Under the pieces are notes generated by a model. That model had not been told where the DNA came from and ran no database searches. It worked only from the letters and a program-made list of their open reading frames with translations. A program made the position numbers and the translations under genes. Source: Photorhabdus noenieputensis (GTDB lineage: Bacteria; Pseudomonadota; Gammaproteobacteria; Enterobacterales; Enterobacteriaceae). From it: a stretch of DNA of 64,000 bases. The stretch covers positions 62,001-126,000 of the forward strand of contig NZ_RCWC01000001.1 of assembly GCF_018448935.1 (NCBI RefSeq). Direction: 5' to 3'. This document shows, one piece after another, positions 16,805-45,925 of this stretch; the stretch's first letter is position 1, and each line of letters starts with the position of its first letter.

Positions 16805-16897
16805 GGTGAGATGGCCGAGAGGCTGAAGGCGCTCCCCTGCTAAGGGAGTATGCGGTTAAAAGCTGCATCGAGGGTTCGAATCCCTCTCTCACCGCCA
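16805..16897 (+). tRNA. serV: tRNA-Ser (anticodon GCU)
   Basis: A 93-nt class II tRNA with the acceptor stem GGTGAGA/TCTCACC, encoded CCA, and a long variable arm. The anticodon loop reads CTGCTAA, giving anticodon GCU for AGC/AGU codons. As in E. coli serV it heads an operon with the ACG-anticodon arginine tRNAs between csrA and gshA. Confidence 0.98.
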
Positions 16898-16907
16898 TTT
16901 AAACCAC

Positions 16908-16984
16908 GCATCCATAGCTCAGCTGGATAGAGTACTCGGCTACGAACCGAGCGGTCGGAGGTTCGAATCCTTCTGGATGCGCCA
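16908..16984 (+). tRNA. argV: tRNA-Arg (anticodon ACG), copy 1
   Basis: A 77-nt tRNA with acceptor GCATCCA/TGGATGC, discriminator G and encoded CCA. The anticodon loop CTACGAA gives ACG, which is deaminated to ICG and reads CGU/CGC/CGA. It is the first of four identical copies. The symbol is assigned by operon position as in E. coli. Confidence 0.98.
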
Positions 16985-17072
16985 TATTAAGCCTTGAGAT
17001 GAAATCATCCGAGGTACCATTCGGGTAATCGAAGCAACCACTGCCTTTTACCAAGAGTGAAAAACTGAACAC

Positions 17073-17149
17073 GCATCCATAGCTCAGCTGGATAGAGTAC
17101 TCGGCTACGAACCGAGCGGTCGGAGGTTCGAATCCTTCTGGATGCGCCA
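17073..17149 (+). tRNA. argY: tRNA-Arg (anticodon ACG), copy 2
   Basis: Identical in sequence to copy 1. It is separated from copy 1 by an 88-bp spacer that is itself nearly repeated between copies 2/3 and 3/4, giving a 165-bp tandem unit. Confidence 0.98.
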
Positions 17150-17237
17150 TATTTAACCTTGGGATGAAATCATCTGAGGTATCATTCAGGTAGTCGAAGC
17201 AACCACTGCCTTTTACCAAGAGTGAAAAACTGAACAC

Positions 17238-17314
17238 GCATCCATAGCTCAGCTGGATAGAGTACTCGGCTACGAACCGAGCGGTCGGAGGTTCGAATCC
17301 TTCTGGATGCGCCA
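17238..17314 (+). tRNA. argZ: tRNA-Arg (anticodon ACG), copy 3
   Basis: Identical 77-nt tRNA with anticodon ACG, again after an 88-bp spacer. It is part of the homogenised tandem array. Confidence 0.98.
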
Positions 17315-17402
17315 TATTTAACCTTGAGATGAAATCATCCGAGGTACCATTCAGGTGATCGAAGCAACCACTGCCTTTTACCGAGAATGAAAAACTGAAC
17401 AC

Positions 17403-17479
17403 GCATCCATAGCTCAGCTGGATAGAGTACTCGGCTACGAACCGAGCGGTCGGAGGTTCGAATCCTTCTGGATGCGCCA
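17403..17479 (+). tRNA. argQ: tRNA-Arg (anticodon ACG), copy 4
   Basis: Last copy of the array, identical to the others and followed immediately by the operon terminator. Confidence 0.98.
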
Positions 17480-19346: not shown

Positions 19347-19497
19347 AAAAGAAAACGGCCACAAGTAAAAGTGGCCAAATAGGATTTTCTAGAGAATAGG
19401 GATAATAATAACGCTTCTTTCATTCTTTATGACCGGTGGCAGATGAAAAAGTTTCATTTGCTTGAAAAAAATCTGAATTTTTTGTGGAGATGAAGAA

Positions 19498-36382: not shown

Positions 36383-36616
36383 TCACTTGCTACCTTCAAA
36401 CATGAGCTGAATTTCCCGATCTGCATCAAAAAAATCTTCTCCTATGGTAATAAGATCTTCGAATCCTCCAGGAACTCTATCTGGTTGGGCTATTGGTACA
36501 ATCTGGACATAAGGCTTGCCAGCTTTGGCTATGATGATAACTTCACCACTGACAGCTTTGTCAGCTAGTTGGCTTAAGTTACTTTTAACTTCACGTATAT
36601 TTGTTTGGATAGTCAT
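36383..36616 (-). CDS. Phd/YefM-family antitoxin without a visible toxin partner
   Basis: A 77-residue protein with the prevent-host-death pattern: N-terminal 'NIREVKSNLSQLADKAVSGEVIIIAKAGKPYVQIVP', a dimerising DNA-binding fold that in operons of this type represses its own promoter, plus an acidic C-terminal arm ('FEDLITIGEDFFDADREIQ') that would neutralise a toxin. Such antitoxins are usually followed by a PIN (VapC) or RelE/YoeB toxin. Here only 135 bp separate its stop from the 3' end of the convergent speB, and no toxin-like frame is seen. It appears to be an orphan or the remnant of a toxin-antitoxin pair. Confidence 0.8.
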   Translation of the reverse strand: MTIQTNIREVKSNLSQLADKAVSGEVIIIAKAGKPYVQIVPIAQPDRVPGGFEDLITIGEDFFDADREIQLMFEGSK

Positions 36617-37593: not shown

Positions 37594-38280
37594 TTAAATT
37601 AAGAAATGACGGGCCAGTAGAGGAGCAGTGAAATTTTTTCTCAGATAGAACCCGCGAGGCAGAGTCATAATAGGTTGGCCGTGTATTCCAATTGCTTCGG
37701 TTAATGCTTTGCTGTTAGCCGCTTTTGGGCGTAACTGTAATACTTCGCCATGACGGGCGGTAACGCTCTCTACTTTGCCAAGCACGATAAAATCCATCAA
37801 TTCTTCCCAGTCGCGACGCAGTAACTCTTCCTCCTGTTGATTGGGACTCCACAATAAAGGGGAACCCACTCGGCGTTTGGCTAGAGGAATTTCCCGTTCA
37901 CCTTCAACAGGTATCCACAGCACCCGCGATAATTTGCGCCTGACATGGCAACTTGCCCAGGTAATGCCGCTGTTGCCTGTTAATGGTGCAACGCAGACAA
38001 ATGTTGTCTCCAGTGGATAACCTTTTCTGTCTACAGGGATGGTTTTAAGCTCAATACCGATATGTTCGAAATCTTGTTCTGGCTTACTGCCGGCACTCGC
38101 ACCGAGATAATATTCTAGCAACATGCCTACCCAGCCTTTATCTCGTTTCAGATTGGGTGGAATAGGTAAATTTGCTTTTGCCGCGAGTTCTCCCATTGAT
38201 AAGCCAGCCAGAAGTTGGGCGCATTCAAACAATTGTTGCTCATTGTCTGGTGGCGGTGGAGGGGAAAAAAGAGTGTTCAT
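37594..38280 (-). CDS. mutH: DNA mismatch repair endonuclease MutH
   Basis: Nicks the unmethylated strand at hemimethylated GATC sites when activated by MutL. The catalytic D-E-x-K pattern is seen in '[15 protein letters not shown]' (Asp, Glu, Lys near residues 69, 76 and 78). 228 residues against 229. A proline run near the N-terminus ('SPPPPPD') is typical. Its presence implies Dam-directed mismatch repair. Upstream lies the DnaA-box-rich interval described separately. Confidence 0.97.
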
Positions 38281-38474
38281 TTGGGATATCCGTTTTTTAG
38301 GTCAAAAAACAGCCTTAGTTTCTGTGAGTAATAAATCTGAGGTTCATACAATAGCTAAAAAGTGATAATAGCATGATATACAAACATTTTTTATTGCTGT
38401 TTCAAATATTGTAAAATTGACTGCCGTTCTTGTTCACCTATTGCCGGTAATAATGAACAGGATCTTACACCATG

Positions 38475-38483
38475 TTATCCACA
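38475..38483 (+). promoter_or_regulatory. DnaA box, perfect 9-mer
   Basis: TTATCCACA, the highest-affinity DnaA box sequence, on the plus strand. Confidence 0.85.
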
Positions 38484-38593
38484 GTTTTATGGGATAAGTA
38501 GACAAAAATGAGATCACTGGTTTGATTTACAGGTTTGACTCACACTTTTTTCTACAAAAACCGCTGTTTTTTGCTTAACTAAAAAGCATAACC

Positions 38594-38602
38594 TGTGGAT
38601 AA
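38594..38602 (-). promoter_or_regulatory. DnaA box, perfect 9-mer
   Basis: TGTGGATAA on the plus strand, i.e. a perfect TTATCCACA on the minus strand, facing the box at 38475. Confidence 0.85.
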
Positions 38603-38778
38603 CATGATCTTTGGTTGTTTTTTGTTCTTATCAACTAACGTTGTCCGTTATAGCTGTGATTGGCATTAGAAATAGCGAGGTAAATAGCCGCTATTTCAAT
38701 GAAAAATAAATACTATTTCATTTTTTGTCTATAGATTGATAATTCATAATATAAAGCTATACCTGAATTACCCCTGCC

Positions 38779-38813
38779 TTTTTCACATAGATATCCACAG
38801 AAAAAGTGAATAA
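38779..38813. promoter_or_regulatory. Compact cluster of three weaker DnaA-like boxes
   Basis: TTTTTCACA (fits TTWTNCACA), ATATCCACA (one mismatch to TTATCCACA) and the inverted AGTGAATAA (one mismatch to TTATTCACA) lie within 35 bp. Three close boxes of mixed orientation are what a DARS core needs. Confidence 0.5.
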
Positions 38814-38864
38814 AAGCGAGTTTGTACACCTGTGTATGTTCATAACTCTGGCCTTTTCTGTGAA

Positions 38865-40526
38865 TTACCCTTCATATGGGTTGAACCAAGCAGATTTGAA
38901 ATCAAACCAACCAAAGGTGTTCATTTTGACTCCTCGCATACTTCTCTGTCCCTGTAACTCAAGCCAATGGTGGAACAGTGGATGCAGCCAATGTTCATCA
39001 ACTATTTTTTCGCACCACTCTTCAAGCGATAATTCTTGTTGTCGCCATTGTGATACCTCTTTACTTAAGTTATCACCAAGGCACTTTTTCAATAATGGCA
39101 TTTCGTACAGCGTAGCAAACAGCGAAAACTCCAGAGGATTATAAAAATTGGCGGTAGCAAGCCAGAGGTCACTTTCAGTGTTACCGTTGAACCATGTGTC
39201 ATAATCCACAATGTTGATTTTCAATGCGACGCCGCATTTGGCCAGTATGGCTTGCAGGATCTGGCTGATTGTGTGGTATTCGTGATGTTGATGACAAAGC
39301 GTGACGGTCAGACGGGTAATATCCTCTGGTTTGTTCAATTCGGATATCAGCTTACTGTGATGCCAGCGTAGTAATAAACCATAAGCGGGTGACCAATGGC
39401 GTTGATAAAAGGGGTCACAATGTGCTAGCAGATTGATCGGTGTTAGCAGGCTGCATAGCCATTGGCGAACGTCTTCTCTCTTACATTGAGTTGAACGGTG
39501 GTCATGTAGTAGGAAATAACAGCCTTCTTCTATCCTGCTATCTAACGAGTTATTATCCGTGCTGTCACTTTCCAGATGCAGAGTTGTACAAACCAGTTTC
39601 TCGGCTAATTCTGGTAGAAACCATATATTCACCTGATCAATCAGCGCCCGAAAGCCAAAGTAATTATCAAAGGCCCGAATTTGTAGTTTCTGAGCACTGT
39701 TTTTTATTACCTGGTAAGGACCGGTTCCCACTGGCATACGAGAGAAGTTCGGTAACTTTTGCCACTCTTGAGGTAAGATCATGGCATGTGGACTGCCGAT
39801 TAATAAAGGGAGCCAGAGATCGGGTTCTGAAAGAAAAATATCAATCACATAGGGTGTGGGCGTGGTGACTTTTTCAATATGAGAAAAAAGAGGCAGGTTG
39901 CGTAATCTTTGTAGCGAAGCGATGACATCCGCCATCTGTAATTCTCTGCCGTGGTGAAAATGGATAGCCGGACGTAGATAAAAGCGCCAATGATTTGAGG
40001 ATAATTGTTGCCAATGATGAGCTAAGTCAGCTTCTGGTTCCCCATTTTCCTCATTTATGCGGGTTAGGCTATTAAATATCTGCCTGACCAGATGGATTTC
40101 AGAACGGCGTAACGGTGAACCGGGTAGAAGATTAGGAAAGGGGCGATAGTAGAGTATCCGCAGTAAGTTTTTTCCCTGACGAAAACGGCGTTCAATCTGG
40201 GATAGTACCATATGACGGACTGTATCTTTATCACCAACCAGTTGGACTAGCTTCTCAACGTTATGTTGCTCAAGCAACTCTTCAGCCCGTTGTTGCTGGA
40301 GTTCCCATCCATCACGCAAGAAATTCAGTTGAGAACGTTTCCCCCGACCGGATTCTGCCTGCCACTGTAACCAGCCCGCTTTCTGCATATTGTTGAGCAG
40401 TGAACGGATATGACGTTTTGAACAATGCAGTACATTTGCCAGCTCTTGTAACGTTGTTTCAGCCTCTTTTCCTTGATGGTGTTGCCATAATCGAATGAAT
40501 TGTTGTTGTAAGCGTGAACTGGGCAT
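38865..40526 (-). CDS. sgrR: HTH-type transcriptional regulator SgrR
   Basis: Activator of the small RNA gene sgrS under glucose-phosphate stress. The 553 residues match E. coli SgrR (551). The N-terminal winged helix is at about 1-115 ('TTLQELANVLHCSKRHIRSLLNNMQ'), followed by a solute-binding SBP_bac_5-like domain ('LLPGSPLRRSE', 'INEENGEPEADLAHHWQQL', 'RFYLRPAIHFHHGRELQMADV') and the ending 'GWFDFKSAWFNP'. It is divergent from the SgrS-like RNA, as in E. coli, but setA is absent. Its neighbour mutH is not its E. coli neighbour, so a rearrangement joint lies near 38.8 kb. Confidence 0.95.
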   Translation of the reverse strand: MPSSRLQQQFIRLWQHHQGKEAETTLQELANVLHCSKRHIRSLLNNMQKAGWLQWQAESGRGKRSQLNFLRDGWELQQQRAEELLEQHNVEKLVQLVGDKDTVRHMVLSQIERRFRQGKNLLRILYYRPFPNLLPGSPLRRSEIHLVRQIFNSLTRINEENGEPEADLAHHWQQLSSNHWRFYLRPAIHFHHGRELQMADVIASLQRLRNLPLFSHIEKVTTPTPYVIDIFLSEPDLWLPLLIGSPHAMILPQEWQKLPNFSRMPVGTGPYQVIKNSAQKLQIRAFDNYFGFRALIDQVNIWFLPELAEKLVCTTLHLESDSTDNNSLDSRIEEGCYFLLHDHRSTQCKREDVRQWLCSLLTPINLLAHCDPFYQRHWSPAYGLLLRWHHSKLISELNKPEDITRLTVTLCHQHHEYHTISQILQAILAKCGVALKINIVDYDTWFNGNTESDLWLATANFYNPLEFSLFATLYEMPLLKKCLGDNLSKEVSQWRQQELSLEEWCEKIVDEHWLHPLFHHWLELQGQRSMRGVKMNTFGWFDFKSAWFNPYEG

Positions 40527-45721: not shown

Positions 45722-45751
45722 TAAAAAAAACCCGCGCATGGCGCGGGTTTC
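45722..45751 (-). terminator. Attenuator terminator of the leu operon
   Basis: On the minus strand AACCCGCGC-CAT-GCGCGGGTT, then eight T's: a very strong terminator between leuL and leuA. Ribosome stalling at the leucine codons of leuL would favour an alternative fold and allow transcription of leuA. Confidence 0.94.
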
Positions 45752-45787
45752 TTGTTAATGTCTGGTTTGGACCAACTCTGTTTTGAA

Positions 45788-45871
45788 TCAACTCTGTTTT
45801 CTGTCCACCAGCATACCGCGCATATCAGATACGATGAGTAGTAGGTTTAATAGACAAATTGAGTGAATCAT
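45788..45871 (-). CDS. leuL: leu operon leader peptide
   Basis: A 27-residue peptide from ATG 45871 to TGA 45788, with '[12 protein letters not shown]' near the start: leucine codons CTA TTA AAC CTA CTA CTC, including three rare CTA codons. E. coli LeuL has a similar 'LLLLN' block. Together with the promoter upstream and the strong terminator 37 bp after the stop, it forms a classical leucine attenuation module. It is too short to be picked up by length filters. Confidence 0.92.
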
Positions 45872-45925
45872 ATTGATCCAACCTTTCAGTAGTATTAATG
45901 AGTGTTCGTGATTCGTATGCTTTTA

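Follow-up and report, generated by a model that had tools for sequence, protein, structure and literature searches.

The mutH-sgrR interval and its DnaA boxes

The window, by which we mean the whole 64,000-nucleotide stretch of DNA analysed, derives from Photorhabdus, as shown by its MutH, which shares 99% identity with the P. caribbeanensis protein, and by the best 12 named loci, all of this genus. The gap between mutH and sgrR is intruded upon, from either side, by only two short mechanical open reading frames of at least 60 amino acids, and it contains a series of DnaA boxes and other conserved elements that together form a probable orthologue of the Escherichia coli DnaA-reactivating site DARS2. 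The features are as follows.

37594..38280, minus strand: mutH, the conserved neighbour (NCBIfam equivalog, firm call)
38865..40526, minus strand: sgrR, the neighbour apparently placed here by an inversion, reading into the site (NCBIfam equivalog, firm call)
38458-38867, minus strand: probable DARS2 orthologue, the whole conserved element, 410 bp
38858..38867, minus strand: far-side DnaA-like box a1, TAATTCACAG, whose TAA is the sgrR stop codon
38837..38845, minus strand: far-side DnaA-like box a2, TTATGAACA (family consensus TTATAAACA)
38805..38813, minus strand: core DnaA box I, TTATTCACT (E. coli counterpart TTATTCACC)
38791..38799, minus strand: core DnaA box II, TGTGGATAT as read on the minus strand, facing box I, with a 5-nt spacer to it
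38779..38787, minus strand: core DnaA box III, TGTGAAAAA as read on the minus strand, with a 3-nt spacer to box II
38692..38704, minus strand: place matching the E. coli IHF site IBS2, a weak match with 3 mismatches
38594..38602, minus strand: DnaA box IV, perfect TTATCCACA, 211 bp from box I
38515..38539, minus strand: conserved block C, GTCAAACCTGTAAATCAAACCAGTG, with 95% or higher conservation in 19 of its 25 columns across 61 loci
38491..38497, minus strand: conserved TTATCCC beside box V, with 95% or higher conservation in 6 of its 7 columns
38475..38483, plus strand: DnaA box V, perfect TTATCCACA, oriented toward box IV at a distance of 119 bp
38458..38471, minus strand: tail GGTGTAAGATCCTG on the mutH side of box V, recognised by sequence conservation

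Read on the minus strand toward mutH, the order is a1, a2, I, II, III, IV, block C, TTATCCC, V and GGTGTAAGATCCTG. The two perfect boxes in opposite orientation that had been reported in the preliminary description are thus boxes V and IV, and its compact trio of weaker boxes corresponds to core boxes III, II and I; all of them are present. Judging from its position, block C is probably the counterpart of FBS2-3.

Elsewhere in the window we observed a Phd-family antitoxin-like open reading frame between speB and ygdQ (36383-36616; NCBIfam TIGR01552), a run of five tRNA genes, of which the last four are spaced at 165-bp steps (16805-17476), the MicA small RNA (19352-19421) and a leucine operon leader (45724-45881).

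Identity of the element

Only two perfect DnaA boxes occur in the 64 kb, against 0.73 expected, and because 15 of 100 shuffled sequences also reach two, this count alone is not convincing. To that extent the data would agree with DnaA boxes having clustered by chance in intergenic DNA rich in A+T, but the trio, taken as a 35-bp composite pattern, occurs once in the window with no mismatches, where 0.01 occurrences are expected at up to 3 mismatches. This expectation, together with the fixed spacing across 98 loci described below and the homology to E. coli detected by blastn, led us to reject chance clustering, which we consider extremely improbable. In the blastn search, the query 38200-38870 (E limit 1) found matches in 5374 of 5426 complete E. 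coli genomes; among the 20 matches listed, the matching DNA lay at ygdT or at a hypothetical protein, the 416-bp span was the same in query and record, and the best E value was 9e-6. Alignment with E. coli DARS2, which the preliminary description had proposed as a check, gave 238 identical bases among 470 aligned.

The original reading of the interval as DARS2 is borne out by the order, orientation and spacing of the boxes, which agree with E. coli DARS2 in the mutH-rppH interval. The two sites share the core geometry, boxes IV and V, block C, TTATCCC, the tail after box V, a1, a2 and the place upstream of mutH, and the distances from box I to IV (211 bp) and from IV to V (119 bp) are identical. 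The window differs in that its far neighbour is sgrR and not rppH, its IHF places are weak, its a2 reads TTATGAACA, and it has no intact ygdT frame. Closer comparisons are found within the genus. According to the Figure 8 legend of PMC8682772, the DARS2 homologue of P. luminescens TTo1 has conserved DnaA boxes and FBS2-3, so DARS2 is already known from Photorhabdus; a P. luminescens locus from a strain other than TTo1 (L036) is identical to the window in core, block C and spacing.

When the 5.36-Mb genome was searched in full with a somewhat wider version of the core pattern, allowing up to 2 mismatches, two matches were obtained, at DARS2 and at DARS1 upstream of uvrB. The DARS1 core (G000:C29:2766-2800, L226) is 1 mismatch from the pattern. 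DARS1 occurs both in this genome and in E. coli; it shares the three-box core geometry of DARS2 but occupies another place and, as the papers describe it, is without boxes IV and V and the IHF/Fis module. We rejected DARS1 as the identity of the mutH-side core, since that core lies upstream of mutH and the uvrB-linked core of the genome is another one. The genome encodes the factors that would act on the site, namely DnaA, Fis, IHF-alpha and IHF-beta (the last three as equivalogs).

Several of the features by which a DARS2 may be recognised are present in the interval: the three-box core, with boxes I and II facing and spacers of 5 and 3 nt, the place upstream of mutH, and boxes IV and V at fixed spacing, judged on IV and V themselves and not on the individual low-affinity boxes V-a to V-c. 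From the sequence comparisons, we consider it very likely that the interval is a genuine chromosomal DARS2 of Photorhabdus.

Conservation in the family

mutH was matched in 81 of 99 genomes of the family; three of these (G036, G053 and G055) were fragments and were left out, and upstream DNA fetched for 77 genomes gave, with the window, a survey of 78. An intact DARS2, defined as a core with at least 18 of 20 fixed letters plus perfect boxes IV and V, lay directly upstream of mutH in 60 of the 78 (59 plus the window); in one genome the site was split, in one it was degenerate, and in 16 there was none. The 16 comprise G069 (3.3 Mb), G039 (2.4 Mb) and 14 genomes of 0.4-1.6 Mb. G069 (L126) is of ordinary size, and its mutH and rppH lie close together with no DARS2 between them. 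In G026 (L124), handled apart since it dropped out of the automatic table, its mutH being cut off, DARS2 is split by about 2.8 kb of inserted DNA, so that box IV is 2,900 bp from box V; the insert, a natural disruption of the site, carries two long open reading frames that by eye resemble transposases. The degenerate DARS2 of G051 has no exact box V and stands outside the alignment.

Conservation of box order and spacing among relatives, whose absence the preliminary description had regarded as counter-evidence, was found. A core with a perfect box V was present at 98 loci from the family, the named loci and E. coli, which include at least four pairs of contigs equal in length (L062/L101, L063/L115, L066/L129 and L069/L097) and are thus not all different genomes. 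Box IV was perfect in 96 of the 98, at 209-212 bp from box I and 117-119 bp from box V, the exceptions being P. thracensis and P. khanii. Neither the window nor any of the 12 named Photorhabdus loci showed a change in the core.

For column-by-column conservation we aligned 61 loci, namely those of 59 genomes that bear different genus labels, of the window and of E. coli. These loci were selected for a core of at least 18/20 and a perfect box V, so that conservation of the core and of box V is partly by construction, while box IV, a1, a2 and block C were outside the selection criteria. Columns conserved at 95% or more numbered 7 of 9 in box I, 8 of 9 in II, 7 of 9 in III, 9 of 9 in IV and 9 of 9 in V (selected for), 9 of 10 in a2 with its leading G, 3 of 10 in a1 (mean 0.87), 19 of 25 in block C, 0 of 13 in IBS1 and 3 of 13 in IBS2. 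The E. coli gene ygdT (L001:5331-5477) is annotated inside DARS2. Its frame, judged by start codon, length and the lack of an internal stop, is intact in only 9 of the 61 aligned loci, which makes it improbable that ygdT is a conserved protein gene, and similarity to it may reflect the DARS2 DNA.

The site is upstream of mutH in every family genome where it was found, and several E. coli promoters are reported to be repressed by DnaA, both of which would fit a reading of the boxes as a region through which DnaA controls the mutH promoter (and once also that of rppH), and not as a reactivation site. We regard this as very unlikely, given that the facing boxes I and II with spacers of 5 and 3 nt are the core of a DARS, seen also at DARS1; that the core is about 500 bp from mutH; that 16 mutH genomes do without the boxes; that loss of rppH from the flank left the far-side boxes in place; and that promoter-like matches are at the chance level (3 found, 2.6 expected).

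Occurrence beyond the family

A class-wide search for mutH matched 81 of 369 genomes, mostly from distant families, and an order-wide search, which we added, matched 286 of 295. Among the matches listed, we sampled 60 upstream regions, 40 from other families of the order and 20 from outside it; several families of the order, f192, f195, f196 and f200 among them, lie outside this sample. A core-pattern score of at least 19/24, which may be reached via the core or via the TTATCCC-box V stretch (the two sources are pooled), was obtained for 27 of the 40 regions from other families and for none of the 20 from outside the order; the background, consisting of 300 shuffles and 386 upstream 1-kb pieces, never rose above 18. 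Two consensus boxes facing each other at 117-120 bp, in the manner of IV and V, were counted from the box lists in 17 of the 40 regions, and in 3 more the distance was 128-129 bp. Two sampled families of the order showed no DARS2 signal (f2, 0 of 3; f207, 0 of 4), and a third showed it once (f3, 1 of 6).

These results bear on the proposal that mutH is the reliable landmark of the site, which holds in one direction only. In a scan of the family, 61 of 68 matching genomes had the match directly upstream of mutH, and the remaining 7 matches were weak and to A+T-rich parts in small genomes. mutH is thus a good place to look for DARS2, yet many mutH genes are without it: by the thresholds used, the site was lacking at 16 of 78 family loci, 13 of 40 loci of other families and 20 of 20 loci outside the order, so the presence of mutH does not imply DARS2.

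A probable inversion junction at the edge of the site

In E. coli the gene orders are thiB-sgrR-setA-leuD and rppH-DARS2-mutH. Among the 59 intact family loci fetched, rppH was within the stretch in 55, and sgrR or a remnant of it in 4 (L097, L110, L113 and L128). In the window and the 12 named Photorhabdus loci, sgrR adjoins DARS2, with leuD-leuC beyond, and the reciprocal junction, rppH beside thiB-thiP-thiQ, was present in all six genomes examined (G000, G012, G082, G090, G093 and P. thracensis). The suggestion that the site had stayed with mutH while its other flank was rearranged is therefore supported by both junctions, DARS2|sgrR and rppH|thiB. The simplest account of the two is one inversion spanning oriC with breakpoints at rppH|DARS2 and thiB|sgrR, the alternative being a series of stepwise rearrangements. 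In G093, mutH and rppH lie at +0.169 and -0.171 of the contig from dnaA, a placement that agrees with a symmetric inversion. The corresponding positions in P. thracensis (+0.301 and -0.130) and G090 (-0.284 and -0.197) imply later changes. A TPP riboswitch lies between thiB and rppH (L158:9879-9983), apparently carried along with thiB by the inversion.

The junction falls right at the edge of the site. In the window and in L036, L046, L050 and L113, the sgrR stop codon is formed by the first three bases (TAA) of a1, while in L110 and L128, also among the six relatives printed, it is not. The element from a1 onward has been kept with mutH although everything beyond it changed. At 19 named Xenorhabdus loci (L044-L058, L060, L065, L067 and L069), sgrR beside DARS2 is full length and uninterrupted in 4, consists of two overlapping pieces in 1, survives as short remnants in 10 and went undetected in the other 4, and DNA of the sgrR 3' end often persists by DARS2. 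An inversion with its junction at the edge of DARS2 amounts to a natural boundary experiment, and suggests a unit reaching about 55 bp beyond the core.

The distance of mutH from dnaA was also compared. Taking the contig with both genes as the chromosome (in G020 and G004 that contig is smaller than the genome), mutH was at a mean of 0.200 of the contig from dnaA in 21 rppH-type chromosomes (sd 0.026, range 0.145-0.257; G054 and G069 are out of the mean), and at 0.301 in P. thracensis, 0.284 in G090 and 0.169 in G093, which carry the rppH|thiB junction; P. thracensis is outside the range 0.145-0.257. In E. coli, DARS2 moved to 0.33 was grouped with sites free of the near-terminus defect in the account given in PMC5010248.

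It is conceivable that the Photorhabdus site is a decayed DARS2, in which the sequence is kept while the site is weak or differently regulated, with IHF binding lost and sgrR transcription running through it. The larger dnaA distance and the imperfect box IV in P. thracensis, the latter shared with P. khanii, could be read in this way. PMC5010248 describes transcription through DARS2 as harmful in E. coli, and no terminator-like sequence was found between sgrR and the site (0 found, 0.6 expected). The check for IHF and Fis sites envisaged in the preliminary description gave weak matches for IHF and was uninformative for Fis: at the places of IBS1 and IBS2 the window has 4 and 3 mismatches to the IHF consensus, compared with 1 and 1 in E. 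coli, and the Fis consensus has no match in block C at up to 1 mismatch, E. coli included. PMC4245941 describes IBS1-2 and FBS2-3 as highly conserved in representative species. IHF sites are poor in many members of the family as well: in just 41 of 61 loci does IBS2, at its E. coli location, come within 2 mismatches of the consensus, so that scoring by the IHF consensus may be too strict. With the core unchanged at the 12 named loci of the genus and in the window, decay appears unlikely to us, and we retain the reading as a genuine DARS2.

Box IV, the far-side boxes and proposed function

By analogy with E. coli (PMC4245941, PMC8682772 and PMC10380432, in the parts that treat DARS2), ADP-DnaA would bind boxes I and II head to head, and bending by IHF, together with Fis near box V, would bring the complex into an ADP-releasing form. 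The freed DnaA could then take up ATP before the next initiation. Plentiful ATP-DnaA would be expected to oligomerise from box V and displace Fis, switching DARS2 off. The weak IHF places of the window count against carrying this scheme over directly.

The far-side box a2 (GTTATAAACA) is conserved as strongly as the core. Among the 61 aligned loci it reads TTATAAACA in 54, TTATGAACA in 6 and, in one row that is perhaps misaligned, TTAAAAGTT. A promoter of rppH as the reason for the far-side block is disfavoured, the block being kept where rppH is elsewhere. We regard a1 and a2 as candidate parts of DARS2 because they were kept where the inversion replaced everything beyond them.

Box IV is perfect in 61 of 61 aligned loci across the family, which extends a conservation already known from E. 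coli, where PMC4585315 gives boxes 1-6 as unchanged in 59 genomes. A DnaA ChIP-seq table in PMC11317965 lists a 199-fold peak at 2969306, assigned by its authors to the core double box; reading its coordinates as NC_000913.3, an annotation that the table's oriC peaks fit, the peak is 40 bp from box IV (2969346), and we infer that box IV is bound by DnaA there. According to PMC4245941, boxes IV-VI are dispensable for stimulating initiation under plasmid conditions in E. coli.

These observations lead us to propose, tentatively and at somewhat less than even confidence, that the E. coli definition of DARS2 understates its size and modularity: a1 and a2 would belong to it, boxes IV and V, facing each other at a rigid distance of about 119 bp, would act as one regulatory unit, and box IV would matter at native copy number. 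The main text of the literature searched (supplements and figures aside) contained no description of an inversion junction at the DARS2 edge, of a2 or of an order-wide IV-V spacing.

DARS2 thus emerges as a rigidly spaced unit beside mutH in most of the family's larger genomes and, more widely, in part of the order. Box IV and a2 are the elements singled out by this comparison, and both are left in place, along with box V, by the primers for the core-only E. coli deletion given in PMC4585315.
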